A DNA stretch of 64,000 bases from Pyropia yezoensis (Eukaryota; Rhodophyta; Bangiophyceae; Bangiales; Bangiaceae). The notes under the pieces are model-generated. The model worked only from the letters and a program-made list of their open reading frames with translations, did not search any database and was not told where the DNA came from. Position 1 is the stretch's first letter. Each line of letters begins with the position of its first letter. This document shows, piece after piece, positions 1 to 50,465 of the stretch. The stretch covers positions 27,058,063 through 27,122,062 of the forward strand of contig CM020619.1 of the NCBI GenBank assembly GCA_009829735.1, given 5' to 3'. Made by a program: the position numbers and the translations under genes.

Positions 1-3000
1 CGGAGCACCCCTTGCTCGTGTTGAACTCGTCCTGGTCGACAAACCAGCACAGCCGTCGGAGGTGGCGGCGGATCCAGGCGTCCCCCCCGCGCACGCGCGC
101 GGTGCCTATGGCCGGGACGACCGCGCCGCCGCCACGGACCTGGCGAAGGAGGCCGCCGGTCAGGTCCCGCGCCACCGAGGCAGCAAAGCGGCCGCGTTGG
201 ATGGCCTTGCGCACACGCGCCGTCCGCAGGTGTCGCGTGGCTTGCGCGCCAAATCGCTGGCCGTACGCGGCCGTGTCGCGACGGGCGGCCCACTCGAGCG
301 TTGCCTGCAGGTGCGCGCCGTCGTCGCCAGTACGCATCGTGCCGTGTGCTGCTGCCAAGTCGACGGGTGGTAGGTTGCCAGCGACGCCGCCTCCGTCACC
401 CGCCGCCGCCGCCACCAGTCCCGCCACCGCCACCGCCACCGGTCCCGCCTCAGTACCGCTGCGTGCCCGCCACTGCTTCCACGCACGAGCCAAAAAGTTA
501 CCGCCGCTGGCCTCCCGAAAGTGGGCGGCACTCAGGCTGTAGCGAAGGCCGGGGACGGGTGCCAGTCGACGACACCCCTTGCGCCGGGGCAGCGCGTCCA
601 CCCGGTTCTGCAGCGGCGCGTCTAGGGTGGTGCCGCTGGCACTGTCGTCCGCCGCGGCAGTGGGGTCCACAAGCCACCGTGCCACCTTTTCCGCCTCGTG
701 ACGGGGCACAGTCCACCGGGACAGGCACGTGCGACGCAGCACACGCCGCACCGAGGTGGCAAGCTGGGTGCGGCGGGCCCGTCGGATGGACGCCTGCGGC
801 CCACGCCGCACGCGCCCGTGGCCACCGCCGGGGCTCGCTGTCTGGTAGGTCCTTGCTTCGGGGGGCGTCGTCCCACCCGCCGCCGCCGGAGCCACCGCCG
901 CCGCATCATCGTCGCTCCCCTCGGGTGACGACCGCCGCGCTTGTCGCTTGGAACGGCCCCCCCCTGTTCCCGCCCCTGCAGCCGGGGCGCCCGCCGCCGC
1001 CCGCTTCCTAGGCCCCCCCGATGGGTGTCCCTCGGGCGTGGTTGCGGCTGCCGCCACCCCGTCCTGGACGCCCGCCCCACGCAGGAGCGCCACGGCCGCC
1101 CGGTTGAGCGCGTCCAAGCCCATGTGACGGGACCCCGCGGCGCGCATCGCGGCTACAGCGGGGCGGGCTGGGAGGTCTGCCGTCGCCACGCGCTCACCCG
1201 GTGCTGCCGACAGCACGGCAGACCGTCCCGGGTCTCCACCGACCATCTGGAGCCACCGGACGCGCGCCAACGGCAGGCCAGCCCGCTCGAGCTGCGTCAT
1301 TACCCGGCCCGGGACGCAAAGCCGTTGCCGCCGCGGTCCCGCGCACGTCCACCGCCGTCCAGCTTCTTGGCCCAGGCCACCGCCCGCGCCTCGGCCTCTG
1401 CGGCCGTGTCGGGTCGAGACAGAAGAAAAGTTACCGACACGCCGTCGGTGGACAGCTGGGAGGCGGCCTGGTTGGCGCGGCCACCGACACAAGCCATGGC
1501 GGCCAGCACCGCTGCACCGCCCATTCGCAGCTCTGGCCATGCCCGAATACTGGGGTGGCCACGCACCCCCCCGCCAGTGGCGACTGAAACTGCCCGGAAC
1601 AGGGCGAGCATCTTTTCCGGCACCAGCGTGCCGTGCCCGTGGAGCACCGCTCGGGCGCCAGGGATGAGGGCGTACGGGCTCCCCACACCCACATTCAGGA
1701 AGTGGAAGAGAAACGGCACGTACGCCCACCAGCGGCGCTTCTTCACAGGCGTTGCTGGAAAGAGGCCCGCCACAGAGGTTGGCATGGCCGCCCGCATGAC
1801 GGCTACCCGTTGCGCCAGCGCCTGGACCAGGTGCTGGGGGACGCCGTCGAGGCCCCGTCGGCCCGGCGTTGCCTTGTCCGCGGTACCTGTGCGGAAGCGC
1901 GCGGCCGCCCACCGCGTCAGCCGCCGCTCCGTGTCCCAGGCAGAGCCGCCCGCTGGAGCAGCCGTGGCAGCGGGGGAGGTGGCCTGCGCGTCCTTGGCCG
2001 CCTTGGCGCCCAGCTTGCGACACGCCGCGTCCACACACCGCCCGGCGTGGGTGGCCACGATGGTGGCGACGGGCTCCCATCGTGCCGTGTTGTTGCTCGC
2101 CGGAAGATACCGGTCGCACGCAGCTGCCGTGACGGCCATCACCTGCGTCAGGGCGTAGGAGAGCGCCTCTGCCAGCAGCGGGTGGCTCGTCGTCACCACA
2201 GAGCGGGCGCGCGCCATCCGCGTGTTGGTCCGCCCCTTGCCACACCCCGCACACACATGGTGCCCGCCTGCAGGGGACTGCCATACACACCCTCGCAGCC
2301 GCAGGCGTAGGCCAACCACAGCCAGACGGGCGTCCAGATTGCGGGCACGGCCCCCGTCCAGTCGGCGTCGTCGGCGGCTGGGTCCGCGACGGTCGACACC
2401 AGGCGCCGCAATGCCACGTCGAGGACGCGGAGCATGAGGAAGCGGAGCTTGGTAGCCGCCCCAGAGAGGTCCTCCAGCTCTGCTTGCAGCGCCGTCTCCA
2501 CCGCCGCGCGCGTGTCGGCGTCGTCCTTGTCGTCCCCAAACACCGCCCTCGCGAGGACGCCTACCGGCACGGTACACGCCCGCGTCTGCCGTCCAGTGCT
2601 CTGAAGCGGGTCCTTGCAGTCGGGGTCGACGCCGCGGTCGTAGGCCGCTGACACGCCCCCACAGTGCCGCTGCACCGGGCAGGCGCCGTCCCCGCTGCTG
2701 TGGCCCCTTCCCAGGCAGTCGCGACACTTGGACGCGGCCGCCGCCGCCGCCGCCGGGACGGCGGCGGCAGCGGCAGCGGCGGCGGCAGCGGCTGCCGGCC
2801 CTGCACCAGCCGGGGCCTTGCAAGAGGTGACCTTGTGCCCGGGCTCGCCACATCCGCTACACTTTTGCGTCCGCCCCTTGCGGGCGGGCGGTGCGTCAGT
2901 GGCAGCCTCGCGCCGGGGCAAGCCCGCGGTGGCCACGCCAATCAGCCCAGCGGCCGTCTTGGCGCGTGCGGCGAGCTTCACCTCGGCCTCGCTTGGCGCC

Positions 3001-3370
3001 GCCCGACCTCCACAGTACACGATGACCGCCTGTGCCGCGTCTGTGCCGCGTCTGTGATGGCCGCGACGAGGTCCTCGCCGGCGCCGTCGAGGGGGCCCGC
3101 CGCCTCCTCATCCTTTGCTGCCTGCTGCAACCCCGCGACGGCGGCAGACCAGTCGGCCGACGAGGCCGCGTCGCCCCCTGGGGGTGCAGACACGCCTTGC
3201 AGGCGGCTCAGATTGGCGGCGAGCACCGCCCGCTTGAGCGTCACCACGTTGCGTTCGTCTTTAGCGTACGCCTGCTCTTGTGTCGGGTCCCACTCCGCGT
3301 CCGAGGTGGTGTCGCCGTCCAGCCCGTCGACGCCAACGTCTTGGTCGCCGCCGTCGTCTTCTTCGTTCAT
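1..3370 (-). pseudogene. Fanzor-like RNA-guided nuclease gene, frame-broken and cut by the window edge
   Basis: Likely a Fanzor protein, a eukaryotic relative of TnpB that in studied members is an omega-RNA-guided RuvC DNA nuclease. The best start is the ATG at 3370, giving an acidic N-terminus (MNEEDDGGDQ). Then come two CCHC-like clusters (CSGCGEPGHKVTSC and CRDCLGRGHSS, about 2700-2880), a CAGCGKG cluster near 2240, and a helical region. STDGVSVTFLL (about 1420-1456) matches the TDGVS motif found just before RuvC-I in Fanzor proteins. GGDPGRSAVLSA (about 1205-1240) is RuvC-I with its Asp-Pro-Gly. YSLSAAHFREASGGNF resembles the following conserved block, and DEFNTSKGCS (2-34) opens the zinc-ribbon/RuvC-III region, the rest lying outside. 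The frame shifts by +2 at about 3031-3052, 2251-2256 and 1303-1312; between breaks it is open, the last stretch for 433 codons to the edge. Family call is by motif recognition only. Function would need an intact allele or an assembly error. Confidence 0.78.
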
Positions 3371-5602
3371 CGTGAATCCGGGGCGGGGGGGGGGGGGGGG
3401 AGGGGGGGGGGGGGGGGTTGGAGGCGGATGAGCGGGTTGTGTGTGTGGGAATGACTGTGAGGAGGGTGGGTGGGTGGGATTGTCGACGGTGGCTGACGGG
3501 GTTAGCAAAGGTGGGGAACCTCGGGGCACCACATACCGCCCTATTTATCGTCTGGCAAGGCACCATCCGGGCCGGGGTCCTCACTCGATGCCGAACGCGT
3601 GCTGTAGACGCTGGCGATGGGCCGCACGGGCCGTCAGGAGGCCGGCGGACCGGGTCCTCACAACCCCCCGCCCCCCCCCCACCCCCCCGCCCCACCCGCC
3701 CGCCCCCCCGCCCCCCCCCCTCCCCCACCCGCCGCCCGCCCCCCGCCACCCCCCAACCGACGCTACCTCTCGGGCAGGGGGCAGAGCGGAGGATGCTCGC
3801 ACCGCCACGTGCCCCTGTGGGCTGTCGCGTGGCCTCAGCTCGCTGCCCCGAAAATGAAAGGTCCTTCTCATCTCCACGGCACCCGTGGCCGACGGTGGCT
3901 GCCGTGAGAGTGTCCTGTGGCGCGGCGGCGGTGGTGGTGGAGGGGCTCGCAATGGCGGTGGTGGGGCTGGCGGTGGTGGTGTGGCGGCGGCGGGGGTGGT
4001 GATGGCGTTGGCGGCCCAATTGCAGACCGCGCACAGACGCTGTGCTCATGGCAGCCGCCAGTAGCACGACGGTGGGTGCGGACGGAGTGCACCGCATGCA
4101 CTGTGGCATTTGAGCCGACTGACACGCCAGCATCCGTGCGGCTCGCCAAACCATGGCGAGCGAGCGCCCCCCCCCCCCCCCCTCCCCCCCCCGCTCCCCC
4201 CCCCCCCCCCCCTCCCCCCCCCCCTCCCGACGGCACGTATTGGGAGAGTGACCGCCACCGTGCTGTGGGGCAATAGCAACACTGCAATTGAACCCACCCT
4301 CGGCACTGCCTGCTCGCCACGGTGCATGTGGAGCGGCGTGCCGGGACGCGGGCACCCAGCCTTTTGGTGCTTCCGGTAGGCCCCGTCCGTTTGCAATGCA
4401 CTACGAGCACCGTTTGGGAAAAATGTCATCCTGGACGTCTTGGTGGGGGGGGAGGGGGGGCAGTCGTGTACCTCAAACCCACCGCCACAGACGGCATTGC
4501 CATGCTGCGAGCTCACCGCGCGGTGCATCCAAATGGCCTGTCACCAGCACACGACACCGCGCGGGCCGCGTGGACCTACGGCTCTCGTCAGACCCGGGGG
4601 GCGCAGAGGGAAGCGACTGACCTGACCTGCCTGTGGCTGAACGTGCGGCCGACGGATGAGAGCACCCATCCCCGGACACCCACATCACCGTCCAATTCAA
4701 CATCATCTCGCGCCGCCGCCCAAATCCCCTCCCCTCCCGTTTGATCGGCGTCGGTGTCAGCCGGTGATCGGGCTCCTCGGAAATCGAAGTTCAATTCGTT
4801 CCCCCTCCCACGCCCCTCGCCCTCTCTTTATGGTTTCCCCCCCACTCCCACCTGACTTTCTTCTGTGGGCGTGCTCGAGCGCATTCGAGCCTGCCCCCAG
4901 GGATGTCCTCCTGCCCACCAAAGGGTAGCTATGCAAGAAAATTATGTGAACCGTGCGAAATGCCCATACCCGGGCTAGAGCGCGTGGCGTTCATCACTAG
5001 AGGTGCGCGCGCCCATTGAGGGGTCGATTAGATGTCTAATGATCTGTGGAGCTTTTAATGAGCGAATGGTGGGTCCTGCGTGTGTCCGAGTCATTTTTGT
5101 GACACTGAGTGGTGGGTTTAATGACCCGAATTTTCATCGCAGACCAAGCCACCACCTGCTGAGCAGTGGCGCGTCACCGCCCTGGTGATGTGCGCCTTGT
5201 GGGCTGTTTGAGAGGCAGTGACGCACGAGTGCGTGTGTGAGTGTTTGAGGGGCAGTGAGGCGTGAGTGAGGCGTGAGAGCCAGTCCCTTGGCGGCAGGAG
5301 GGTGCGGGGGGGGGGGGGGGCCAAGTCCCTTGGCGGCAGCCCACACCATCGCCGACGAGGTCAAACGATCGAATCGACCAGACGACGAGGCCATCACATG
5401 TCTGGCAACGGCACCGCACCCGACTCGTATATGGTGAACAGGCAAGTTCAACTTCTCGCCCCCCACGACCCCCCTTTCCCTCATGAAAGTAGTCAATTTG
5501 CCGAAAAGAAATTAGCAAGTACCAAAGCATCAAAATCATGACGCAATCGGAAAACAGATATTCACGCGTCGACACATAGCAATCTCGACAAAGATCCGAA
5601 GA
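3371..5602. other. intergenic, G/C homopolymer-rich
   Basis: No supportable gene. The stretch holds long G runs (about 3375-3417), C-rich tracts (about 3664-3760 and 4167-4228), and a direct repeat of cagtcccttggcggcag-like sequence near 5280-5338. Open frames here are Pro/Gly/Arg homopolymers on both strands. From about 4700 to 5600 composition becomes more balanced, with no recognisable feature. The Fanzor-like gene's promoter would lie just right of 3370, but no defined element is visible. Confidence 0.6.
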
Positions 5603-5978
5603 GCGTTATGTACATAACGCCCTACGGTCCATCTGACAAGCCACGACTCCCAGATTCTCCATTGGCTCACCTGTCGCGTTATGTACATAACGCGACACGG
5701 TCAGCTCTGGCGAACTACCACGACAAACATCACAAGAGCGTTATGTACATAACGCGCCACGGTCTGTCTACCGTACCACACCTACCAGGTTCTCAAAAAG
5801 GCTCACCTCACGCGTTATGTACATAACGCCACACGGTCAGCCTCGGCAATCTGACGGGACGATGCCAAGTGCTCGCCAGACGCGTTATGTACATAACGCG
5901 ACTCGGTCTGCCTTGTCCCAGTCCCGGCCAACATCCGACCATGGAACCTACCCATCTGTTGCGTTATGCACACAATAT
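5603..5978. repeat. array of six 18-bp palindromes
   Basis: Five perfect copies of the dyad GCGTTATGTACATAACGC lie at 5603-5620, 5676-5693, 5738-5755, 5812-5829 and 5882-5899; a decayed sixth is at 5961-5978. Start-to-start spacing is 73, 62, 74, 70 and 79 bp, about 7-7.5 helical turns. A short CGGTC-type box follows most dyads three to four bases on, while the intervening sequence differs. The array overlaps the 3' tail of the antisense helicase frame, whose terminal TAA (5815-5817) lies inside the fourth dyad. As RNA each unit would form a 9-bp hairpin with no loop, so a protein-binding dyad in DNA is more likely than an RNA hairpin. Function unknown. Confidence 0.9.
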
Positions 5979-8900
5979 GGCATGAGTCAAGACTGATGGT
6001 GGTACCATGGGCCCTGTCGGGAGCCACAATGTTGATGTGCTCGCGGCCCGGTCGATCTGGACGGCTCCACCTATGGCGGACGTTGTCCCACCAACTCTTC
6101 CACACACCCCCAGAGCTTGAAAGGTAGTCCATGTCACCAATCACTTGGAGATGGCTCTGTGCCCGCGACATCATGACGTTCACGCGCCGCTCGTCGGACA
6201 AAAAGTCGGTGCTCCCGCCGGGTGGCGCCCCAGGCTCTGACCGCACGAGGGAGAGTATGACACAGTCCACAGAAGCGCCTTGGCAGCCATCCACGGTGGA
6301 CACCCTGACGTCGGCACATGGTCTGCGGGGCAGCCGCCTGCTGTCTCTCACCGACTGCACCGCTTCATTCAGCTTGTTTCGCTGCGCAGTGTACGGGGTG
6401 ATGAGCATCACCTTCAGCTTGGTAGCCCCGCTGGACGTCGCCCACGCCAGCAGTAGATCCGTAAGAGCCATCTCGACCAACCGAAGCTCTGCAACGTTGA
6501 TCAGGCTCTTGTTGTTGGAGGTGGTGGAACCCGACTTGTGCGCCCGATCGTTGGCCGGCAGGCGGGAAGTGTCTGTCACTTACAACCCTCCAAAGCGAAC
6601 ACGCCGACTCGGATGGTTTAGCCACGCGGGTGTTCCAAACCCCTCATGGCGGGCCTTGGGCCCGCGCCTGTCCGACCATACGCCAATGTGCCGGTAAAAG
6701 ACTTCTCGGAGGAGGGACCATAACAGCGGCCTCATGCGGTACTGCACGGAGAGGATGACGCAAGCGGACAGAAACCTGGTGAGCCGCTCAAAAACGCTTG
6801 ATGTCATCGGCCGTGCGTCGCCTCTGTACTCCATGCCGGCGCTCGGCCTCAGCTGGGCATTGTCGCCAACAAGGTCAACGCACTTGGTCCGCTCTGCCGG
6901 ATGACCGTCCTCTTTTTCGTCTGACGAGCGACCCGCACGCCCCGCCCGCTTAGCGCGAACAATGGCGGCGACAGACGCAGGGACGCTTGTTGCCGCACCC
7001 TCGTCAATGATAATGGCGTCAAAGCCTTGACCCCCCACGAGCGCCCCCGTCGACGTTGACGTTGTTGTGACAATGACGGACGCGCCGCCCACGATGCGCT
7101 TGCGGAGCTCCCGTTCCGCACGCTGCTGGCAACGCAAGGCAGCCTCCAGGGCTTGCTCCGCATCGGCACATTCCTCGAGGAGGATTTGTGACCCACCTGC
7201 GCCCGGCTCTGCACCCTGGGCGCGTGAACGATCCACACGACGGCCCACATCGGCCACCCGTGCCCTTGCCCGTTACACCGCGGCTGTCACGGACGGGTAG
7301 GCGACAGGAAGGAGCTCGTCCACCACGGCGTCAATTTGCGCTGTCTTGGGACGGTGGCCGTCCGGAGGGGGTTGACCCACACGGAGGAGCGTCACGGCAT
7401 CGGGTTTCGCGACGCCGTGTCGACTGGCAGCCCCCGACGGACAGAACAACTCGTGCACTGCGTCCAACAGCTCGTCGCACGCCGTGTTGGTGCGCGACGT
7501 CAGCAGGACCCGCCCGTCTGGCAGGGTCCCAAGTACCATGTCCACCATGGAGACAATGGCGCGTGTCTTGCCCGTCCCGGGGGGGCCCGTCACCAGCTGC
7601 ACGTCACACTCGTCCGACAACAGCCCCTGGCGCATGCAATCGACTGCGCGCCACTGGAACTCGTCCAGGTGGGCGTAGCGTGGAGGAGCACTCTGCAGGG
7701 GGGGAGGCCCCGGTGCCGGTACAGGTACCACCTGCTGTCCCCCGTGCGGAGGCGTTGCGTGGATGGCGAGTGCCCTCTGCATGACTGGCGGAAGAAGGTC
7801 CCAGTGGCCGAGGCCGCCAAACTCGCGGCTGTCCGACAGGACACTATGAGACAGGGTGACGACCACATTTGCCGTCCGGCGATGGAGCATACGCCGCACG
7901 TCTGAACGACGCACCGCAAACCACCACCGCCGGGGGGGACCGGATGCGCCACCGTGGCGCGCCCTGCCGGCGTCATCGGCCTGCTTGTCCAGCCTCGGGC
8001 CAGGCGTCTTGTCCACCCACCACTGGCCTGCCCCAGCGGGCGGTGGGCCACCAACCCCCCCGCCAGGTTGCCCCTCCTTGTCCTCGCAGCGGCCAATAAA
8101 CATGGCGTCCACGGGGGTGCTGCACACTGAGCCGACGGGTTCCGGTACTCAAAAGGCACACAAATCACCCGGGGTGGCGTCTGTGGGGTCCACTTGACAC
8201 TCTCTTCCGCGGTCCTAGTGGCGGCGGTGGTGGCGCCCAGCGGATCCCCCGGTAGGGCGGCCGCCTCCACCGGGGGGACCACCCCGGGGGGCGGGCATAC
8301 GCACGAGCACGTTGCACATGCGACACGCCCGCGGGTCGTCCAGGATGGAGCCACCCACCTGCGGCGACGACAGGGTGATGGGCGCGTCGATGCGAGCCAC
8401 GCCAAAGCGGGAGCACAATGACGATGTGGTCACGCGCCCACTGCGTCGGCCGCCGCCGCCATGGCCCTTGCTGCTGCCTTCGATAGACTGCGCCACCGCC
8501 TCTGTACCGCGGGCGGCGAGCTGGCACAAGGTGGCGACAACGATGGCCTGGCAGTGGCCCCCAGGTCCTCTTGCGTACAACGAGGACGGGCGCAGGTGGG
8601 TTGGGACATCCTTCCACCCCGACTCGGACGTACAGAGCGTCAACTGACCGAGCGCCACCCGGTCACCATCCGCGCCACCCAGCGTGGGAGGACTGGCCTC
8701 GGTGGCACCCCCCCCCGCCGCCGCCGCCGCCGCGGGCAGAGGTGCAGCAGTGGGAGACGCGTCCCCCCCACCAGCCGGGGAACCAATACAAGAGCCTTCT
8801 ACGCCGGCAGTCTCCCCTCCAACAACAGTCGCGCCCGCGCCTGCAAATGCAGGCAAAGCAGGAGAGGGCTCCTCCCCCCGAGCCACTGCCGTGTTCACAG

Positions 8901-11900
8901 CAGCCACCCCCGCGGTGTCGGTTGCTGCAGCAGTACCAAGTTCAGCAGGTGCACCTCCGCCAACACCCGCGTCGGCCACGGCCGCCGTGCCCGCAGGAGC
9001 CCCACCAACGCCTGGAGCACCCACAGCCACAGCATCCACCGCGCCTGTTGCTATACCCGCCGCCGATGGAGCATCGGGAGCAGCAGCGGTAACAGCAACC
9101 TCGGGCGTAGAGGGCCCGCCTGGGACGGCAGCCGTCGCGGAGGAGGTGGCAGCTACCGTCGCGACAGAGGTGGCAGCACTCTGAGCTACTGCCACATGGG
9201 CGGCCGCCCCAGTGGCGGAGGACGTCCGCCGCTGCCCGACCAGTTGGCCGGCCCGGACCACCCGGGCCACACTGACGACAGTCACGTCATCGTTCTCTGC
9301 GTCATTCCAGTCATCGTCGTCGTCAATGAACACAATGACGCTGCAGGGTTCCGCATTGTAGACAGGGGAAACTGCCTGCGCAGCCAACACATTGTCTGGG
9401 ACCGCCACTGCGGGTAGGTAGCACACAAACTCGACTTCGTTCCCCGCGTCGTCGCCAATGGAAAAGGCGTCTGGGTCACCTGGTGGGCTCGCCCTGTCCA
9501 CGCCGGGCGTTGCGGGTGGCGGTCCATCGTCCTCGGCTCCTGAGCCGGCACCCGCCCCAGCGGCAGCTGCTGCACCCGCCCCAGCGGCAGCCGCCGCAAC
9601 CGCACCAGCACCGGCGGCAGCTGCTGCTGCACTCACACCCGCCTCTGCGTCGTCTGGCGCAGCATACCCGCTCAGTACTTCGTCGATGCGCTGACGTAGT
9701 CGTACGACCAGGGGGCTGGCCCGCTTGCCAGGCCTGGCCGGCGGACAGAGCGCACCCTTCAGCGCGTGGAGGGCCCCCGAACAGGTCGTACCACCGATTT
9801 TTCCGACCCAGGGCCGCAGGCCCAACGGCGACGCCAACCAATCCGACGTTGAATGGGCCAACACACGCCGAGATGCCCACACGGCAACCGCAAGAGGCAT
9901 CCGCACCAGGTTATGGACAGCCGCGAAGTACAACCAGTTGTATAGTGACCGGTCCGCCTCCACGTGCCCGATAAGAACCTCCCAAATCCACGGGAGTGCC
10001 TCCATCCACTCCTTGACAACGGGAGCCAGGTTTGCCACGTCTATGATATCAAATTGCGTGCAGAACTGCTTGTGCTCGGAGAGTAGGATGAGGCACGAGA
10101 CCAAGGCCCTTTGGACGACACCCCGTGTGCGCTTCACGTCTCGGTGGATGTCCAGCCGCATGAGCAGGTGCAAGACACGGGCGAGCGCTCCGCTCGCCCA
10201 AAGCTCAACCGACTCGCGGGGTGAGTCCGCAGGCGGGCGCCCCGCGCCCACGTCCACCAACACTTGCCGGCTGCTCCGCACAAATGCCGTACATACGGCA
10301 AACTGCTGCAGGGGGACACCGTCCCAGGCACGATCTTCCCCGCGAGCGCGCACCGAGACGTCCAGCAAGTGCAGGGCGTTTTCGATGACGCGCAGGGCGT
10401 CAAAACGCCGTGGGGAGCCACCCGACGACACACCCGGGGCAGGAGCGCTGGTGGTCTCGCGGGCGGACACAGCGCGCCACGCGGGAGCGCTGGTGGTCTC
10501 GCGGGCGGACACTGCGCGCCACCCCTCATCGGACGGGACGGGTGCACACCCATCCAACAGGTCCGTGATGGACCACGAATCAGCCCAACCGCCCCCCCGC
10601 TCAGCCACACCGGACAGGCAGCGTATGACCTGCCGGGCGTTCCGTCGGAAGTGTGGACTGGGGGCTACCAGCCACCCGACGCCAGTGTTTGAAGCTGTCA
10701 CACTCGCAACACGTGAAAACAGGGCCGCAGCCGGCGCGACAGCAGTAGCAGCACCCGGAGAGCCAAGGACGGACGAAAACAGCAACGCCGTCATGTCGCA
10801 TATGACGGTTTTCCATGCGTCTACCTCTTTAAAGGCGACGAAGAAGTTTGTCGGCAACATTGCCAACGACCCGGGCATGGACATCAACAGGGCCACGTCG
10901 TCGGGGCTGCCTGCGCCTTCCGGGATAAGCTTGCCGTCGCCATGACCCCGCCCCAGGGCGGAAAGGCTGCGGCCAGACTCGACCAAATGCGACCACAGGC
11001 GGGTGTGTAGATTCAACGGCTGTGGCTGCGGCACCGCAGCACCTCCCTTGCCCGCCAGCACCGCTCGTAGGACGATGGTAGTGTCTGCGCTACACGTGCT
11101 CAGTAGGAACCTCTGGGCCTCGGGGGGCCAGACACCCAGGGACCAGGCGGTGCAAAAAAAGGTCACTTGGTGCGGCCAGGAGGGAGAATCGGCCAGCGAC
11201 CCGTGATCGTGCAACAGTTTTGAGCAGGCGGCGCCGACGGCAGCGACCATCTCGCGGCTGAAGTCGGCGAGCTCCGGACCACCCCCACTGCCAGCGTCTG
11301 CTGCACGCGCACCTTGCGCGGGAAGCGTCGCCGGCGGCGCGTCCGCCCCAGGTCGACGACCGGCCGCGCGGGGGGGGGTCAGCGCCAAAAACCGGGGAGA
11401 CGGCGCCGCAGCCGGACCCGCGGGGCCACCAGGACCACCGGGCGCGGTGAGACGCGCAGCCGGACCCGTGGGGCCACCAGGACCACCAGGCACGGTGAGA
11501 CGCAGCCGCTTTTGCCCCGACCCGCTGGTGATCATCATCCGGGTGGGCGCTGCCGCCATCGCCGCCGCCGCCCGAAAAGACAGGTCGTCGATTGCCTTTC
11601 GTGCCCGCCACACGCTCGGAACCATGATCGGGATGACAAACATGTCCACGAGTGCCTCGAGGTTGGCGCGCGGCAGGTTGGCCAAGCCCGGGCCGCGAAG
11701 GGCGTGCCTCACAGTGGTTGCCATCTCACGTACCACGACCGGGTCACTCGCGTGCGGCTGGTACAGACGGGACAGGTGGGCAACAGCGGCTTTGGAAACC
11801 CGTACACCCGGGTCGCAACGAAGAAGGGCCGACGTTGTCTGGATGAAACACAAGGCGTCGGCCTAGGACGTCGCCTGCGGGCCCATGCGAGCAAAGAGGG

Positions 11901-12600
11901 TGTCACAAGCATGCACCAGTCCGAGGGCACTCGTCGTGTCACCCCGCGTGGCCATGGCACCCCCCGCCGGGTCGGTACGAACGGCCGCCGCTCCCGTCAC
12001 CGCGGACCCCACCACCGGGTGAATGACGTCGAGCATGGTCTCCGCCGGCTCGTCTGCCTCTACAGGAGCAGACCCACCCGGTCGCACCGGCACAATCTCG
12101 TCGACGTCACAGTCCATCTCCTTCAGCCGCTCCACCGGATCGGCCGCCCGCACTGGTGACCCCGTCAGCTGGGCTACGCCCGACATTTGCACCTCCGCCT
12201 CGACCACCGGGTCAGTCTGTGACGCCTCATGCACCACACCGACCGACTCGGCGACCGGCATCGCAGCCGCCGACACGGCCGGCGGCTCCGCTGGCGCCAT
12301 GCCCCCCGACGCCGCCGTCCACATGCCCGCCGACACGGCCGACTCGACGGTCGCCGCCACACCCACCGAGGCTGCCGTGCACTCGCCCGCCGAAGGCGCC
12401 TCCAACGACTCTGCCGGTGGCGCTGCTGCAGCCGAGACCGTCGGCTCCGCCTGTGCCACACTAGCCGGCTCGGCCACCACGTCTGCCGCGGCCGACGCCG
12501 ACGCGGCGGGCACCGTACCCGCCGACGCGACTGACTCGACTGCCGACACCGCCAACGCCTTCGCGGCAGCCGCGTCAGCCACCTGTGGCGTGACCGCCAT
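5815..12600 (-). CDS. Sen1/senataxin-like SF1 RNA/DNA helicase (frame with internal stops)
   Basis: A large nuclear-type helicase resembling Sen1/senataxin, which unwinds RNA:DNA hybrids and aids transcription termination. The first ATG of the frame is at 12600. The N-terminal 1,400 or so codons are Ala/Val-rich, then helical (armadillo-like by composition, 11.8-9.6 kb), then low complexity. The helicase core is clear: Walker A GPPGTGKT (about 7568-7591), motif II IIIDEGAA (about 6990-7016; family DEAA/DEAQ, here DEGA), motif III LVGDNAQL, motif IV QYRM, motif V TVDGCQGASVDCVILS, motif VI DERRVNVMMSRA (about 6170-6205). One frame of about 2,260 codons runs through, but stops fall at 11863-11865 (TAG), 8215-8217 (TAG), 8149-8151 (TGA), 7273-7275 (TAA) and 6580-6582 (TAA). 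A 75-nt GT-AG segment of 3n length could remove the 7273 stop, and GTAAGT overlaps the 6580 stop, so short introns are plausible. Otherwise it is a pseudogene. A 45-bp unit near 10430-10525 is tandemly duplicated (ARETTSAPAWRAVS). Confidence 0.75.
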
Positions 12601-12681
12601 CCCCACCAGCGGACCCACCGGCCTCGTTGCCGCCCCAACACCCGCAGGCTGGGCCGCCAGACACAGGAACACCACCCAGCC

Positions 12682-14480
12682 CGCCGCCTTGGCCGCTACC
12701 ACCTGCTGGGGGGGGGGGGGGGGGGGTGGGGGGCGGGGGGAAAGAGGCGAAAAAGGTACGGCAGAGAATCAGCGGCCGTGGGGTGGGGGCGCGGCTTGGG
12801 GGCAGCACACCAGCAGCGGCGGCGGCGCGGTTTGAAAACCCGCGCCGCCGGTGCTGGCGCGACCTGCCCCCCTCCCCCAACAGAGCCGCCGCGCCCGTGC
12901 TCCCCCCCGGCCGGCCGCCGATCCGCCACCCCGCCCCTCCCACACTCTCCCCCCCTCCTCCTCACGCCCCCTCCTCTCGCCCCCCCCCCCCCCCACAACA
13001 AACGCACCGGTCCGGTCGCGGCAACCGCCACACAGCCCGCCGCCTTGGCTGCTACCACCTTCGGGGGGAGGGGGAGGGGGAGGGGTGGGGGGGAAGAGGG
13101 GAAAAGGGTACGGCGGAGAATCAGCGGCCGTGGGGTGGGGGCGCGGCTTGGGGGCAGCACGCCAGCAGCGGCGGCGGCGCGGTTTGAAAACCCGCGCCGC
13201 CGGTGCTGGCGCGACCTGCCCCCCTCTCGCAACAGAGCCGCCGCGCCCGTGCTCCCCCCCGGCCGGCCGCCGATCCGCCACCCCGCCCCTCCCACACTCT
13301 CCCCCCCTCCTCCTCACGCCCCGTCCTCTCGCCCCCCCCCCCCCCACAACAAACGCACCGGTCCGGCCGCTACAACCGCCACACAACCCGCCGCCTGGTC
13401 CGAATCTACCTGCGGGGGGAGGGGGAGGGGAAGGGGTGGGGGGGAGGAGGGGAAAGAGGGTCGGCAGAGAATCAGCGGCCGTGGGGTGGGGGCGCGGCTT
13501 GCGGGCAGCATGCCAGCAGCGGCGGCGGCGCGGTTTAAAGAAACCGCGCCGCCGGTGCTGGCGCGACCTGCCCCCCTCCCCCAACAGAGCCGCCGCGCCT
13601 GTGCCCCATCCCGGCCGGCCGCCGATCCGCCACCCCGCCCCTCCCACACTCTCCCCCCCTCCTCCTCACGCCCCCTCCTCTCGCCCCCCCCCCTCCCCAC
13701 AACAAACACACCGGTCCGGTCGCCGCCACCGCCGCACTACCCGCCGCCATGGCCGCTACCACCTGCGGGGGGAGGGGGAGTGGGAGGGAAGGGGGGGAAG
13801 GGGGGAAGAGGGTACGGCAGAGAATCAGCGGCCGTGGGGTGGGGGCGCGGCTTGGGGGCAGCACGCCAGCAGCGGCGGCGGCGCGGTTTGAAAACCCGCG
13901 CCGCCGGTGCTGGCGCGACCTGCCCCCCTCTCCCAACAGAGCCGCCGCGCCCGTGCTCCCCCCCGGCTGGCCTCCGATCCGCCACCCCGCCCCTCCCACA
14001 CTCTCCCCCCCCCCTCCTCACGCCCCGTCTTCTCGCCCCCCCCCCCCCCCCAACAAACGCACCGGTCCGGCCGCTACAACCGCCACACAGCCCGCCGCCT
14101 TGGCCGCTACCACCTGCGGGGGGAGGGGAAGGGTAAGGGGTGGGGGGGAAGAGGGGAAAAAGCTACGGCAGAGAATCAGCGGCCGTGGGGTGGGGGCGCG
14201 GCTTGGGGGCAGCACGCCAGCAGCGGCGGCGGCGCGGTTTGAATACCCGCGCCGCCGGTGCTGGCGCGACCTGCCCCCCTCTCCCGACAGAGCCGCCGCG
14301 CCCGTGCTCCCCCCCGGCCGGCCGCCGATCCGCCACCCCGCCCCTCCCACACTCTCCCCCCCTCCTCCTCACGCCCCGTCCTCCCTTCCCCCCCCCCCCC
14401 ACAACAAACGCACTGGTCCGGTCGCCGCCACCGCCACACAACCCGCCGCCTTGGCCGCCACCAGCAGCGGCGGGGGTGGG
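12682..14480. repeat. satellite of five ~352-bp units
   Basis: The landmark gagaatcagcggccgtgg recurs at 12764, 13116, 13467, 13820 and 14171, giving periods of 352, 351, 353 and 351 bp. Each unit contains a G-rich tract, a hairpin (GCGGCGCGG, 8-base loop around TTTGAAAA, CCCGCGCCGC), a C-rich tract with CCGGCCGGCC, and a segment starting gccgccttggccgctacc. The last segment is also the 5' end of the minus-strand helicase frame (12650-12702). Long ORFs on both strands here are products of the repeat and the homopolymers, not genes. Unit-to-unit differences are mostly homopolymer lengths. Confidence 0.92.
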
Positions 14481-15289
14481 GGGAGGGGTGGGGTAAGGGA
14501 GGGGCGCGGCACACCGTTGAGAGGGATGTCGGGAATGGGGGAGAGGGCGCGGCACGACCGGGAAAGGGAGAGGGGGGGGAAGGGAAGGGGCGCGGCACAC
14601 CGTGGAGCGGGCAATGGGGGGTGGGGGCCGCGCGTGCACGCATGCGCGCGTGCAAGCCTGTGGATGCACGCGCACGGTCCGCGCGCACGCATTAGCGAGG
14701 GCGCGGGAGGGCGTTCGCGCGCATGCGCGCATGCATTCGCGCGCGCACGCCCGCGTGACGTGCCCCCCGGGAAACGACAATTTTTGTCCCGACGATTTTT
14801 GTCCTGCGTATTACACACTGGCAGTTTGCGGAAATGCCACAAGACTTTTCAGCACATCCCTTAGCGATCGTCGCCCCCAAGATCAGAGTGAGGGGCGGAT
14901 CATTAGAAGGGGGCGGTTCATTCGGAGGGGCGATTCATTAGGAAGGGGCGGTTCCTTTAGGGGGGGGGGGGGGGGGGGGAAGGGTTCGTGGCACGGGTGT
15001 GAGCTGTGGGCCCACAATGGAGAATCGTTCGTAAGATCGACAGACGGCTAAATCGTAGAGCAAACTCCGTGTACGCGGACATCTGAAAAAGCGCGGAGTT
15101 TGTGTAACCCCTACTCCAATCGATCAATGGACTGGGAAACGCGGTGTATCCGGTATTATGCATATAGACCGCCGTCGGTTGTTACAGAAAGTGAGAATAA
15201 AACTACTCGCCGGAGAAGCTTGCAGAATCAAAACCTCATAGACTACCGGAATTTCGTCCTGGCATAGACCACCGGACACATGCCGGGAC
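14481..15289. other. intergenic, purine-rich then alternating purine-pyrimidine
   Basis: From 14490 to 14620 a G-rich stretch contains the phrase ggcgcggcac three times (about 14500-14610). From about 14630 to 14760 the sequence is dominated by gcgcgtgcacgcatgcgcgc-type alternation, prone to Z-DNA in principle. Near 14770-14805 the phrase gacratttttgtcc occurs twice in tandem. A G run lies at about 14957-14977. No gene is supported. Confidence 0.55.
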
Positions 15290-16048
15290 TCACCCGTGGC
15301 TATTTAGCATGGAACTAAAGGCAGCCAAAATATCGCTTTGTTCTGATTCGCATTTCCTGTGACGGCCCTGAGACGTCAAGCCCGTGCTCGCAAAGCCATT
15401 TCGAGCAGGCGGCGCCGACAGCAGCGTGTATGCACCGACCAGACCGTCCGACACGGAGCATTCCTGGCCCGGGGGCCTGTCGGTGGTGAGTGGACGATTT
15501 ATTCTTCCGTTGCGCTTGGGCGAATGCGACCCCCTGCACGTACATACAGCATTTGCCAGGTGGGCGGGAGCGGCCCCCGGGACGTTCTTGGCCGCGGCCA
15601 CCACGGGTGGCGGCGACAGCAGGGGCGCTTCAAGTTCAAGGGCCGGTAGCCGCCGCCGCCACGGGTGCGCGGCGACCGCAGGGGTGTCTGTAGGTGGGCA
15701 GGCGGGTAGTGACGGGCGCACTGCTGCTGCTGGCTCGTGTGCGACTGGCAAACGTTGCCTGGACGCGCCGTTTGCCGGTGTGTGGTCGTTGGCGGCGGCG
15801 GTGGCGGGCCCTGCCACGCAGACTTGCCTCGGCACCCTGCGCGCCGCGTCTCGGCCGCCAAGGCCCGGCTGGCCGTCGCGCGTGATGTGCACCCAGATGT
15901 ACTCCGCATTGTCTTTGACGTTGCCGATGAAGCTGTGGCGTCTTTTCGGCGCCTGGCACTCGAGGCCCATAGCGAGGCAGACGGCGGCAGTCGGGCGGGA
16001 CCGACAAGGACCAGACGTAAAGTCAAACTGAGGAACCCGGGACGGCAC
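15290..16048 (-). pseudogene. coding-like fragment with similarity to the helicase N-terminal region
   Basis: The minus-strand frame has codon statistics like real coding sequence around 15870-15980 (FIGNVKDNAEYIWVHITRDG, nearly all codons ending in G or C). Near 15385-15440 it reads AAVGAACSKWLCEHG, close to AAVGAACSKLLHDHG in the N-terminal part of the Sen1-like protein (about 11200-11250); DNA of the two places shares gagcaggcggcgccgac. No ATG opens the frame, the middle is low-complexity, and no helicase motif follows. It could be a decayed partial paralogue or an unrelated gene. Function not recognised. Confidence 0.35.
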
Positions 16049-16453
16049 GACCTGTCGACGGCCGTCGAGGAAGCCGTGCTAAATTTCATGCGGCGCGTGT
16101 CTGCGACGCGCGGGAAGCGGGCGTCATCCGATTGGGCCCGCGAGGGCGGCGCGGCAGGTAAGCGCGCCATCGACTTCGCGGCGGCCGCACCGGGCGGGGG
16201 AATGGGTGCGGCGGCGGCGCAGCCGCCCCCGCGCTATGATGCCGCCTTTTACGCCGACGAGGAGGAGGGGGCAGGTGGGGCGGGCCCCACACCCGACGAG
16301 CCATCCCTTACCAGCATTAAAGACGTGCTGACGCGCATCGGTTTCTTCGAACCGTACACTGGGGCCGGGGAGGCCGCCGAACAGGATGGCCAGGCGGGCA
16401 AAGTGACCAAGAAACAGCTCCTCCGTGTAGCAATATGGTTGTCCGTATTGTGA
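16016..16453 (+). CDS. unrecognised coding-like fragment
   Basis: The plus-strand frame ending at the TGA before 16454 reads HDLSTAVEEAVLNFMRRVS, an acidic Gly-rich linker (YADEEEGAGGAG) and a C-terminal helix-like segment (SIKDVLTRIGFFEPY, then KVTKKQLLRVAIWLSVL). Codons end mostly in G or C and second positions are AT-richer, which favours this strand from about 16015. The frame extends left to 15737, but there the minus strand looks more coding. No family is recognised. It abuts the left edge of the retroelement block and may be the truncated end of a host gene or part of the element. Confidence 0.3.
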   Translation, partial: RKVKLRNPGRHDLSTAVEEAVLNFMRRVSATRGKRASSDWAREGGAAGKRAIDFAAAAPGGGMGAAAAQPPPRYDAAFYADEEEGAGGAGPTPDEPSLTSIKDVLTRIGFFEPYTGAGEAAEQDGQAGKVTKKQLLRVAIWLSVL

Positions 16454-16780
16454 CCCTAATGTCAGGGGGGCTACTTCTAATCCTTAACTTCAATTTGAGA
16501 GTCCGAGCTGGTCACGGTATCTATAAGTTACGTGTGACCAGAGGGACTTGCATCCTGGGGTGGAGGGTAGTTCGTAGTGTCTCCGAGGGTTTATAACGAG
16601 GGGGCCGGTGGCGAATCCACCGCGGGCCAAGGTAGAACAGCAAACCCCTCCCATTTGGGCTCCCATCTTGGTCCCGTGGCTTGCGCTCCAAGGACAGCAA
16701 CCTGGGCCTCCCGGTGACGTTGGTGCCGATCCCCCCTGGTGAGTGTTCCCTGAGAGTGGACGCGCGACGGATCCCTATTG

Positions 16781-16938
16781 AAAACCCTCAAATCCAAGTT
16801 GGATTTACTACTAAGCTAACTATCCCAAACTTAGGGAATATGGACCCAAATGCAGGGGGAGGAACGGATCGGGCTAGTGGCCTGCCGCCCCTTGCATGGC
16901 ACGTGTTGCCCCCTACCTGGGGGTCAATACTGCCACAC
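16781..16938 (+). repeat. dispersed repeat, copy A
   Basis: Starts aaaaccctcaaatccaagtt and ends at ctgccacac. It is nearly identical to the reverse complement of 20524-20681 and close to 57244-57403. The shared frame reads PQIQVGFTTKLTIPNLGNMD. Only this core is shared by copy A; copies B and C extend further. It forms the left arm of the inverted pair around block 1. Confidence 0.9.
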
Positions 16939-17219
16939 CTGTGACAGGGGTCGTACCAAGTTGCTACCCCCGCCACCCTCAAAGAAAGTATCTTTGATCG
17001 GGAGCCAAGTTCGGCTATATCGACCAACATGAGGGACCGGTAGTAGCGGCCACCCTCAACGCGGGCGCGAGTAGCGACCCGAGGTCCGGAAAGGAGAAGC
17101 ACCAAGCCAAGTCGGCCGCCTCTCCTCGTCCCCATGTGAACATGGAGGGTGTTCCACCCAGGTTGAGGGTTCAAGTTGAACGCCTCTTGGACCAATATCA
17201 CAAGTTGTGAGATGGTCAA

Positions 17220-18131
17220 TTGGGACTCATGAGAGCCACCCAACACCGGATCGAGTTGAAACCCGGTGTACCCCCTATACGCCAACAACCGTATAGGGGA
17301 GGGCCCCGTTCAAGGGCCCTCGTCAAGGAGCGCTTCAACAAAACTATTGTAAGGCAGCTGCGCCACTATGTGAGTGAGCATGTGAAAACGTGGGACCAAT
17401 ACATTTCTATTCTTACCACTGCCTACAATTCGCAGGTTCACTCATCTACCGGGGAAGTACCCCTCGCTTTTGTGACCCCCCGTCGCGTGCGGTCTATTGC
17501 TGTGCGGCGGTCGCTCCCAACTAGGGAGGATGATCGCAGCACGCCTACTCCTACTGAGAGTAAGGCGGAGTTCGCTGCTATGCTTGAACACCTCATCCCT
17601 AAAGTCAGGGCTGAGATGGACAAAGCACAAAAGCGCTACAAGCGTACCTTTGACAAAAAGGTGCGCAATGCTAAGCATGTCCCCGAACAGGGTGACTGGG
17701 TGCTGGTTCACTCACACACCCCAACTGGGGGTAAGTTGGTATTCCAGACGAATGGGCCGTACCAGGTCCTTCGTACTGATGGGCGGCGTTTCACCATCGA
17801 AAGTGACGATGGGGTCCGCACAGTGAACGGACAGGACGTGGTCAAAGTTGCACCACCGCCTGCAGGCGACCCAGCTTGGGCGCGTGCTTTGGAAGTGTGG
17901 CGCCTCCCCTCACTGCCTGCGGCCAAACAGGGCCCGCAGGAGTACGTGTTCGATAATTTCATCGACCACGGATGGGATGAAGACACTGACCGCCTCATGT
18001 TGGGGGTGCGTTGGTTTGGCTACAAAGCCAAGGATGATACGTGGGAGTATGTGGAGGACCTTCCCGCTGAGAAGGTCCGGGCGTACTGTGCCCGGAATGA
18101 GGTAGACCCTAACAGCCCTCCCTCAACGTGA
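17220..18131 (+). pseudogene. internally deleted Ty3/gypsy pol (RT start fused to integrase end and chromodomain)
   Basis: The frame opens with TQHRIELKPGVPPIRQQPYR, the conserved entry to Ty3/gypsy reverse transcriptase, and passes within a few residues to RFNKTIVRQLRHYVSEHVKTWD...AYNSQVHSSTGEVPLAF, the end of an integrase core. The RT palm (YxDD), RNase H, HHCC finger and first two integrase acidic residues are therefore missing. The integrase C-terminal domain follows (GDWVLVHSHTP...GPYQVLR), then a chromodomain (EYVFDNFIDHGWDED...LGVRWFGYKAKDDTWEYVEDLP). The joint is in frame, leaving a 303-codon ORF. The protein cannot reverse-transcribe. It differs clearly in sequence from the young chromovirus at 25.9-40.6 kb, so it belongs to another lineage. 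Confidence 0.85.
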
Positions 18132-18242
18132 GGGAAGGCCGAGCAACAGTGCCACGAGAGTGCTTCAAGTCGAAGTGGTACGCAGAGTGGCTTTTAACTA
18201 CAGCCCTTACCCTCACACTCTCACAACAAAGGCAGCTGCCAA

Positions 18243-20186
18243 CTAGGCACGCATGCTAGACTCTCCCACTCCACGGCCCTCGCCCTCCCGTGGAGGCGAG
18301 CGGCGAGACCCACGCCGATAACGGTCTCCACTCGTTGGAGGGGGCGGCGGCTCCAAGTCGGAACCGTCGCGCCCCTCACGGTCGCGCAAGTGGCGCCGAC
18401 CGTGGCCACTCTTCTGCCTGGTCTTGCGCGCAAGTTTGCGACGCAGACGCTGGACAGACTCCGTCTCCGACGGGGTAGAGGACTCCGAGACGGAGTAAGA
18501 CAACTCGTCTTCCGACACGGAGGGAGAGCGCCGCGAGTGTCGGCGACGACGGCGAGGAGGCGAGTATGCCCGGCTCGCGCGACGTTTGCCACGCCCAAGT
18601 GGGGCTGGCTGGGGCATAATAGCCCCAATGCGAGCCAACTCGGCTGTCATAAACTCCACCACCGACTCGCAACTCGCGGTCGCCACTGCAGTACGAACGC
18701 GCTCCTCAAGTTGAGGAGTCTCGGAACTCTGTAGGGTTGCGATCGACGCGGCCAACCAGGAAATGGTGCGCACCAACGTGGTGATCATCATCTCTGAGGT
18801 TAGAGGCGTGGGCGGCAACACCAACTTGGGGTATACCGTCAGGAGGGTGGCCCCCAAGTTGGGGGACACCGGGGTGGAAGACTCCACGGCCACGCTGATC
18901 GGGATGTTCCCGTGAGGTTGGAAAGGAACAGGAGGAAGCGGAGGGGCCCGTCGAGGTGGCGGTACCCGGGTGTAACTGCGACCCCGACTTGGGGCCCCCG
19001 CAGTGGGTTGAGTCATATGGTCATCATAGGACGGCACGGCCATAACTATGGGCTTGTCCGGGGGTGGCGCAGTGTGGCGATCCACCCCCGGGGCATACGG
19101 GTAGTCCCCGATGCCCAACCCCTCTCGTAGGACCACACGGCCGTCGTGAAGTTCACGAGCGACCCACACGAACTGGCGAAGTGCGCCATCGTCCTTGGGC
19201 CCACGAGTGGGGCGGCGCAACTTGTGCTCAATGCTCTCCCACTCGATAAACTTATGGAGCCGGAGCATCTCCTCAAGTAGAGTGAGTTGTCCTGATGAGC
19301 ACCCCTCAGCAACTAGCTGAGGGGTGAGCTGTTCCAAACCTTGGAGGAGCCGGAGGGGGAGATGCCAGAGCATCCCCCGCCGCTGAACACAGGACACCCA
19401 GGTCGACATGACCTCGAGGAGCCACTGGGTGGCCAACATGGCCCACACCAGGTGATCAGGGGCAGCCGTCAACATGACGGAGCCGAAGTGGTCAAGCAAC
19501 CGTGGCAACAACGCCGGGATCCCGTAGGGGACCTCAACTTGAGGCCACCACTCGGGCTTCTTTGGATAGTACTGCTCCTTACTGGCAGCAGACTGTTGAG
19601 GAAACTCAAGTTGAGCCGAGGTCACCAAGTAGGGACCTCGCCGGAAGTCTCTCTCCATCCGCACATCAAAGTGATGAGTGTGCGGATCGGCCTCGTGGAG
19701 GTACGGTGGGCGAGTTGCCACAGCGTCCCACGTGAAGGTCGGCAAGTCGCCGGGACCCGGGATAGTTCCCCCGCGGTCCACCATTGCCTTGGCACGCTGA
19801 ACGTCCTCAACCTCCTCATCGTCCAGGAAGGCAAAATGGTCCGTCCTGAAGCCGGCAGGGAACCCGACCCTACGGGGATACTTCTCCCGTAGGCGGTCCC
19901 ATACCCGGCCCATCGCTGCGCCAAGTCGGCCACAGCGAAGAACAGTCAGCCCCTCCTCATAGAGAGGCCAAGCGGGGTAAAACCACCGCCCCAAGGCCTC
20001 ACGCGGGACAACTTGTCCCGCCTCCGGGGAAGATCCCGCCGTCAACCCAAAGCCGGGTGACGCGGGAGTCCCGTCCCCCGGAGCGATCGCGGAGCCCCCG
20101 CCGGAAGTCCCGGCGGGTGCTGCCCCGTAATAGGTGTCCTCCATGCGCTCGTCAAGAGAGTCCGTCTCCACTCCCGGAGTCGCCAT
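18243..20186 (-). CDS. 647-residue ORF of unknown function within the retroelement block
   Basis: Intact frame from ATG 20186 to the stop at 18243; it stays open upstream to 20357 without another ATG. The N-terminus is Gly/Pro-rich, and the middle has a well-mixed composition with many aromatic residues (RWFYPAWPLYEEGL, LVWAMLATQWLLEVMSTWVSC). A proline-rich linker and an Arg/Ser-rich C-terminus follow (RRRRRHSRRSPSVSEDELS), ending in basic sequence. Composition is protein-like, not a by-product of GC. It is antisense to and convergent with the pol remnant, and lies inside the inverted repeats. It could be a gag-like or accessory protein of a second element, or a captured host gene; no motif decides. 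No zinc knuckle or catalytic motif is seen. Confidence 0.55.
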   Translation of the reverse strand: MATPGVETDSLDERMEDTYYGAAPAGTSGGGSAIAPGDGTPASPGFGLTAGSSPEAGQVVPREALGRWFYPAWPLYEEGLTVLRCGRLGAAMGRVWDRLREKYPRRVGFPAGFRTDHFAFLDDEEVEDVQRAKAMVDRGGTIPGPGDLPTFTWDAVATRPPYLHEADPHTHHFDVRMERDFRRGPYLVTSAQLEFPQQSAASKEQYYPKKPEWWPQVEVPYGIPALLPRLLDHFGSVMLTAAPDHLVWAMLATQWLLEVMSTWVSCVQRRGMLWHLPLRLLQGLEQLTPQLVAEGCSSGQLTLLEEMLRLHKFIEWESIEHKLRRPTRGPKDDGALRQFVWVARELHDGRVVLREGLGIGDYPYAPGVDRHTAPPPDKPIVMAVPSYDDHMTQPTAGAPSRGRSYTRVPPPRRAPPLPPVPFQPHGNIPISVAVESSTPVSPNLGATLLTVYPKLVLPPTPLTSEMMITTLVRTISWLAASIATLQSSETPQLEERVRTAVATASCESVVEFMTAELARIGAIMPQPAPLGRGKRRASRAYSPPRRRRRHSRRSPSVSEDELSYSVSESSTPSETESVQRLRRKLARKTRQKSGHGRRHLRDREGRDGSDLEPPPPPTSGDRYRRGSRRSPPREGEGRGVGESSMRA

Positions 20187-20474
20187 GGCTCTCCCCAAGT
20201 TGGGGAGAGAGGCTCTGGCTATCGCAGCACGAGACCCGCCTCGAGTTGAGGGGGACTCGGATCGTGGGTATACGGGTGGCCTCCCCAGCGTGGGGCGGCC
20301 CAGTGGAAGGTGAAGGGGAGGTGGTGGTGATGGTGAAGTGTGAACTGAGGAGAGCAAGCTGCCGAGTGGGCAAGCTTGAGGAGAGGGGCGGTCAACGTGA
20401 CCGCCTCCACATCCGTGTTACGTACTCGATGGGGGACAGCAAGTCGCGCCCCCAACGCCGAGACGTGCGTTTAC

Positions 20475-49994: not shown

Positions 49995-50054
<60 letters not shown>

Positions 50055-50428: not shown

Positions 50429-50465
<37 letters not shown>

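Follow-up and report, generated by a model that had tools for sequence, protein, structure and literature searches.

The stretch of DNA analysed here (the window, 64,000 nucleotides) is contig C2:27058063-27122062 of Pyropia yezoensis, the cultivated red seaweed nori (Bangiales), whose genome was searched as 107.5 Mb in 11 contigs. At its left edge, where the first 4 kb contain ~73% GC, it carries on the minus strand the larger part of a gene which, judged from its sequence, is quite probably a decayed copy of a divergent and oversized Fanzor, the eukaryotic RuvC nuclease of the TnpB family, and which would lie at the right end of a giant transposable element that this alga carries in dozens of copies. 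The features of the gene in the window are the following.

1..3370, minus strand: Fanzor-like gene, N-terminal ~80%, with three frame breaks, delimited by alignment and continuing ~839 bp left of the window
5-7, minus strand: codon of the first cysteine of the putative zinc ribbon; the codon of the second cysteine lies left of the window
26..28, minus strand: putative alternative RuvC-II glutamate (Ealt; E1110 in an intact copy), six residues ahead of the first CxxC
1226..1234, minus strand: DPG of the putative RuvC-I (D709 in the intact copy at C2:13.2 Mb), read from the sequence
2660..2872 (limits approximate), minus strand: two N-terminal Cys/His clusters resembling CCHC zinc knuckles, with PF15288 only at E 0.8
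3371..5000, minus strand: 5′ non-coding stretch of the gene, rich in G/C tracts, common to other copies and variable

Alignment with an intact genomic copy delineates a single gene, which runs from an ATG at window position 3370 to ~839 bp past the left edge (9162-10000 of the fetched locus L001). In the window this gene is divided into four frame segments by shifts near 3044, between 2292 and 2232, and at 1303; since the frame changes at three places, the window copy is broken. A first-pass annotation of this DNA had proposed a Fanzor-like gene from four peptides, and translation of the frames recovers them all on the minus strand and in the order given: STDGVSVTFLL within the frame 1300-2856, and GGDPGRSAVLSA (DPG codons at ~1226-1234), YSLSAAHFREASGGNF and DEFNTSKGCS (E codon at 26-28) within the frame 2-2560. 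The N-terminal Cys/His clusters which it mentioned, CSGCGEPGHKVTSCK and CRDCLGRGHSSGDGACPVQRHC, are present as well, in the frame 2193-3107. It had further placed the rest of the zinc ribbon and the last RuvC aspartate to the left of the window, and both are indeed located there, the latter as D1258 of a RDxxAAxN motif which we take to be RuvC-III.

The gene belongs to a multi-copy family. Genome searches with two parts of it returned 88 and 110 matching rows; among the 110, 72 were kept at >=56% identity, 20 were classed as distant at 36-48% and 18 were dropped as short or as second pieces of the same copy. From the fetched loci 34 copies were assembled, some of them incomplete, and 15 of these 34 hold a single open frame of 1387-1417 amino acids. 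Coding constraint is apparent among the intact copies, with a nonsynonymous divergence (dN) of 0.024 and a synonymous divergence (dS) of 0.049. One member is annotated as hypothetical protein I4F81_002529 of Pyropia yezoensis, and the named relatives found by sequence, with ~8000 candidates scored per search, are all from Pyropia.

Yoon and others describe as the fingerprint of Fanzor a DPG in RuvC-I together with a glutamate six residues ahead of the zinc ribbon (PMC10711439; here and below, cited papers are taken in their available parts). In the 15 intact copies the D and P of DPG are invariant and the G is kept in 14 (one has DPE), while the Ealt glutamate E1110, six residues ahead of C1117xxC1120, and both CxxC pairs are found in all 15. 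The RDxxAAxN motif is similarly stable, with R, D, the second A and N in 15/15 and the first A in 14/15. The ordered pattern DPG...ExxxxxxCxxC...CxxC...RDxxAAxN, present in the intact protein, was produced by none of 20000 shuffles of that protein; a weaker motif set without the second CxxC and the arginine appeared in 2/20000, and DPG with ExxxxxxCxxC alone in 38/20000. The residues of the Fanzor/TnpB motif of Bao and Jurka, D-X(125,275)-[TS]-[TS]-X-X-[C4]-X(5,50)-RD (PMC3627910), also occur in order, as D709, T1113-S1114, C1117/C1120/C1233/C1236 and R1257-D1258, and the 20 residues that separate the last cysteine from RD lie inside the range of that motif.

The database relatives, 17 in number, retain these residues to varying degrees. 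DPG is found in 11 of them and DTG in two (P0012 and P0013), the position being unmatched in four; the glutamate position is readable in eight, with Glu in seven and Lys in P0007; the last motif, RDxxAAxN, was found in four. Two distant relatives, P0016 and P0017, ~40% identical across the C-terminal part, carry ADPG, ERNTSAACDGC and NRDVTAAAN. Moreover, PF07282, the zinc ribbon of TnpB/Cas12f, was the sole Pfam match for five of seven C-terminal pieces (E 0.002-0.16), and it falls on the Ealt-CxxC residues.

A number of results weigh against a Fanzor assignment. The distance from D to [TS][TS] is 403 residues in the intact copy, outside the range of 125-275, and the spacings DPG-Glu (399 residues) and CxxC-CxxC (112) are likewise off published patterns; for PpFz1, an insertion of ~100 amino acids has been reported in RuvC (PMC11423790). 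Key residues are replaced in some relatives, by DTG in P0012/P0013 and by Lys for Glu in P0007, P0002 has no second CxxC and P0003 no last motif. The scores of PF07282, 12.6-18.7 bits, stay below its cut-off of 26.3; the piece from P0003 and the 101-residue end in the window did not match this family, and it is absent from the six-frame search of the genome. Whole proteins, both window frames and relatives, gave no fitting Pfam or NCBIfam match, and neither single proteins nor profiles of three, nine and four sequences matched a solved Fanzor, TnpB or Cas12 in PDB. Among the other searches, PADLOC matched no Fanzor model in the whole window frames and whole relatives, one PDB search returned just low-complexity matches to ribosomal P2 (E >=0.3), and viral contigs scanned with the profile of the family gave 16 pattern matches with no relative among them.

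In the profile search suggested in the first-pass annotation, whole proteins were without a Fanzor/TnpB match, and only C-terminal pieces contacted PF07282, under its cut-off. As for its Fanzor reading itself, the fingerprint of DPG and Ealt is there, but in a broken copy and in proteins without a fitting profile match at full length. On the basis of the fingerprint, of the residues shared by the relatives and of the contacts with PF07282, and despite the negative profile results, we consider the family to be a strongly diverged Fanzor, which would have a RuvC fold.

A conserved non-coding 3′ segment, which had also been anticipated to the left of the window, does follow the gene there. It consists of ~180 nt after the stop codon and ends at a sharp boundary, ...GGGGTTTAACCGATAGTT, in 29 of the 34 fetched copies; in the fetched stretch of the other five this boundary was not found. 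In the window copy it is found ~1.0 kb beyond the left edge. Across the 15 intact copies the segment diverges by 0.9%, against dS 4.9% and dN 2.4% in the gene, whose mean divergence of 2.8% (71 windows of 60 nt) is about three times higher. Divergence amounts to 9-14% in the 420 nt before the ATG, a value that G tracts may inflate, and to 62-68% just beyond the boundary, where the flanks are unrelated. The terminal 120 nt are predicted to fold more stably than shuffled sequences, with z -3.17 and -3.36 (0 and 1 of 200 shuffles as stable) and z -2.21 in a diverged copy (5/200), and the predicted stem closes at the boundary; a foldable end with a sharp border and unrelated flanks would suit a guide-RNA scaffold. 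Rfam gave no match in L001. The first base past the right end is A in 18 of 29 copies (p 2e-5) and the second a pyrimidine in 24 of 29 (p 6e-4); this preference may reflect a duplication, a target rule or an effect of the target-adjacent motif (TAM).

Other properties of the right end count against the proposed reading. Within the gene, three individual windows of 60 nt show equal conservation, and its best-conserved 180 nt come close, with a divergence of 1.04%. The entire 185-nt segment folds barely above shuffles (z -1.67, 14/200), and covariation is nearly absent, with double changes in 2/49 pairs and a term of +0.7 (six sequences).

These properties are relevant to the possibility that the protein descends from TnpB/Fanzor but is no longer an RNA-guided nuclease and now serves the element in a structural or DNA-binding capacity, perhaps assisting transposition by binding the right end as DNA; the 3′ segment would then be a binding site of the transposase or of the Fanzor itself, and not an RNA scaffold. 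The end of the segment coincides with the border of the element, the position expected of a recombinase site, and the scarcity of covariation would fit such a role, as would DPE in one of the 15 intact copies, Lys in place of the RuvC-II glutamate in P0007 and DTG in P0012/P0013. However, all 15 intact copies retain the D, E and D residues, we judge a conserved stretch of ~180 nt to be long for a binding site at a terminus, and folding of the last 120 nt is more stable than that of shuffles. We regard this scenario as distinctly unlikely.

The right end could also be traced independently of the gene. Its 17-mer occurs 85 times in the genome with at most two mismatches, against three occurrences of a reversed control pattern. 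Of the 85, 50 have a match to the Fanzor query at most 1.5 kb ahead of them, 13 have one within 40 kb and 22 have none, this pairing having used 79 of the 110 Fanzor search rows. The lack of a match does not imply the lack of a remnant: L098, among the 22, still carries the last Fanzor codons. Six variant ends were fetched, of which three have the whole segment, one the last 143 nt, one the last 59 nt, and one is unrelated except for the 17-mer. The two short ones, L097 (C2:31600075) and L096 (C2:27205311), share with the family just the final 59 and 143 nt of the right end, respectively, a 5′ truncation with an exact 3′ end. In a search for a terminal inverted repeat, the inverted right-end 16-mer did not occur in the window, and the genomic matches of the right-end 17-mer were without an obvious inverted partner, as judged by eye.

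The first-pass annotation missed that the gene is the terminal one of a very large element with several genes. The parts of this element and its border are listed below, first those in the window, then those read in the left part of other copies.

5604..5898, no strand assigned: group of five perfect palindromes CGTTATGTACATAACG lying between helicase and Fanzor and overlapping the helicase frame at its end
5815..8148, minus strand: UPF1/SEN1-like superfamily-1 helicase gene in three frame segments (PF13086 E 6e-11, PF13087 E 7e-28)
8215..12768, minus strand: two long open frames upstream of the helicase motifs, of the same gene or separate, without family match
12629..14543, no strand assigned: tandem repeats of ~352 bp inside the element
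14500..16426, minus strand: leftmost stretch of the element kept in the window copy, common to many copies
16426..20993, no strand assigned: high-copy retroelement sequence of the long terminal repeat type, with a 724-residue frame of no known family
L075 1703-2548: RING-H2 protein in the left part of the element (PF13639 E 2e-9)
L071 981-3230: DNA methyltransferase (PF01555 E 1e-9) with a SET match just below cut-off, read in one copy
Left part of the element, opposite strand: open frame without clear family

Homology among copies covers part or most of window 5000-14000 in the window copy and 15 others that were scored. It extends to window 16426 and, in other copies, further left; beyond 16426, the window showed no match to the left part of the giant element as fetched. 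In the copy at C2:21.3 Mb the searched pieces are collinear and equally oriented between 21343455 and the right end at 21376550, a span of 33 kb. The element is thus at least 33 kb in size and its left end lies further out. Between these pieces, a stretch of ~8 kb (L073 and L071, C2:7.5 Mb) was read in a single copy and was not among the queries; the interval measures 7.9-8.0 kb in four copies (C2:7.5, C2:12.2, C2:21.3 and C3:25.7 Mb), and these equal lengths suggest the same content. The order of genes along the element is RING-H2, DNA methyltransferase, the opposite-strand frame, the 352-bp tandem repeats, the long frames, the UPF1/SEN1-like helicase and Fanzor. The tandem repeats match within the element, and the best solved relatives of the helicase are UPF1 (PDB, E 7e-9). 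The palindromes CGTTATGTACATAACG, five in the window against 0 expected from shuffles, recur fivefold at the matching place of L066 and once each in L069 and L070.

It counts against the proposed reading that leftward extension in the copy at C2:7.5 Mb reached no left end, TAM or target duplication. What looked like a left end at L075 position 315 was rejected as an insertion in this copy, because the 80 bases to its left are common to 19 of the 20 other fetched copies and the last ~27 of them to the twentieth. A Helitron is likewise not supported: the helicase in the part read is UPF1/SEN1-like and not of the PIF1 type, and no Rep domain was found among the frames scanned. Stretches in the left part suspected to be ParB-like and 2OG-oxygenase-like had no Pfam match and are not claimed.

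The association of helicase and Fanzor was examined across the genome. Out of 124 helicase rows, 57 near and 21 distant helicases were kept and 46 rows dropped as second pieces or weaker matches. A Fanzor lies downstream on the same strand within 30 kb of 49 of the 57 near helicases, at 4.7-6.7 kb in 41 cases; 1000 random placements yielded a mean of 0.72 and a maximum of five helicase-Fanzor pairs. None of the 21 distant helicases is followed on its own strand by a Fanzor within 60 kb, and the 20 distant Fanzors have none of the 78 helicases within that distance. Helicase and Fanzor therefore travel together in the near family, given 49/57 paired against 0.72 by chance, and no such link was seen among the distant ones. 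Those 21 loci form a second multi-copy family of UPF1-like helicases, 45-48% identical to the helicase of the element, several of them in long open frames.

This association is difficult to reconcile with the idea of the Fanzor gene as an independent small transposon that lies beside the helicase repeat by chance. The right end can occur with little else, since 22 of the 85 right-end 17-mers have no match to the Fanzor query within 40 kb upstream and since L097 and L096 share only the last 59 or 143 nt, which would suit an independent small unit. So would the copy at C3:20.27 Mb, in which the pre-ATG stretch is duplicated further up: at C3:20271848-20279150 (L068 and its copy), ~640 bp before the ATG are repeated ~1.8 kb further upstream. 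Yet a chance neighbourhood does not account for 49/57 pairs, and no common left boundary was seen between the two genes, homology reaching 1.3-2.4 kb upstream of the ATG in the eight other copies examined, with local gaps. Such an independent transposon appears to us highly improbable.

An unrelated zinc-binding transposon protein of GC-rich Bangiales, matching the motifs by chance, would explain why no Fanzor, TnpB or Cas12 model is matched above threshold, but appears very improbable in view of the ordered motif set in 0/20000 shuffles, of PF07282 as the only Pfam family contacted by five of seven C-terminal pieces, and of the same residues with NRDVTAAAN retained by P0016/P0017 at ~40% C-terminal identity.

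If the protein is a Fanzor, the right end of its element invites comparison with SpuFz1, whose RNA, with a 75-nt scaffold, runs 14-15 nt past the right end (PMC10432273). By analogy with TnpB and SpuFz1, we infer that a right-end RNA would be expressed and used with a guide for cutting, with a role in keeping or spreading the element. In the most likely mechanism, transcription of the right end would give a non-coding RNA, the final ~120 nt of which would fold into a scaffold ending at the boundary; the transcript would continue into the flank, which would act as a guide, different for each insertion. The Fanzor would bind this RNA and cut the sister or homologous chromosome at the matching site that lacks the element, and repair from the occupied copy would restore the element. 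More speculatively, the giant element could use its oversized Fanzor and right-end guide RNA to persist and spread, and its UPF1-like helicase, its DNA methyltransferase with a SET-like part (read in one copy) and its RING protein could form with them one RNA-guided, chromatin-modifying mobile system rather than being passengers; we hold this to be possible but rather doubtful.

Fanzors in transposons are already known, including in one red alga (CMe-1A, PMC3627910). The Pyropia protein resembles Fanzor1 (SpuFz1, GtFz1 and PpFz1; PMC10432273, PMC11423790, PMC3627910) in its DPG, in the Ealt ahead of the ribbon and in the C-terminal ribbon followed by RD. Fanzor1 is similarly encoded in multi-copy transposable elements, and the Spu-1 element has a conserved RNA scaffold at its right end (PMC10432273). 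Most Fz1 proteins are 600-700 amino acids long (PMC11423790), whereas the Pyropia protein has ~1400. It also differs from Fanzor1 by its N-terminal Cys/His clusters, by long insertions that separate RuvC-I from RuvC-II and interrupt the ribbon, by the absence of a profile match and by its carrier of at least 33 kb.

CMe-1A, a Fanzor1 element of the red alga Cyanidioschyzon merolae with ~150 copies of ~3 kb, is likewise a red algal multi-copy Fanzor element, and in neither was a terminal inverted repeat found; compared by description only, it is far from the at least 33 kb of the Pyropia element, the left end of which is unread (PMC3627910). MCi-2 of Mucor circinelloides has in common a well-conserved, Fanzor-bearing 3′ part and copies that vary in their 5′ reach. 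That 3′ part is, however, ~6 kb and one subfamily has a partial Crypton transposase (PMC3627910), whereas no recombinase was found in the part of the Pyropia element read. Fanzor and a DNA methyltransferase coexist within one element in Mariner-2_PGv and Mariner-1_OLpv, from two viruses, which differ in being mariner elements with endonuclease genes (PMC3627910); the Pyropia element has instead a UPF1-like helicase and a weak SET match, its methyltransferase being read in one copy.

The Fanzor elements described in the available parts of the literature compared do not include one with several genes that is RNA-guided and possibly self-marking. To us, the double length, the N-terminal Cys/His clusters, the absence of profile matches and the multi-gene carrier appear to be new. 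Open-access literature gave nothing on Fanzor in Pyropia, subscription papers being mostly outside its coverage, and for Fanzor with red algae the matches listed had other subjects by title. The giant transposable elements treated in the available part of PMC12695648 have no bearing on that of Pyropia. In a cultivated red seaweed, the range of Fanzor would thus be extended to proteins of about twice the usual length that score under standard profile cut-offs and are encoded terminally in a multi-gene element of at least 33 kb. This suggests that profile-based surveys miss such families. If active, the element would offer a natural setting to ask what a Fanzor does for its own transposon, a question treated as open in the available parts of the literature compared.

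The remainder of the window holds other features. Two near-identical polyprotein regions, at 28857-32729 and 35676-39548, look Ty3-like by eye and are apparently neighbouring retrotransposon copies. GC reaches 79-84% across the 6 kb of window 46001-52000. Finally, window 21225-22193 encodes C-terminal anticodon-binding domains of a class I (Glu/Gln) tRNA synthetase (PF03950 E 3e-17, PF20974 E 6e-13), which directly adjoin the retroelement and the giant element.

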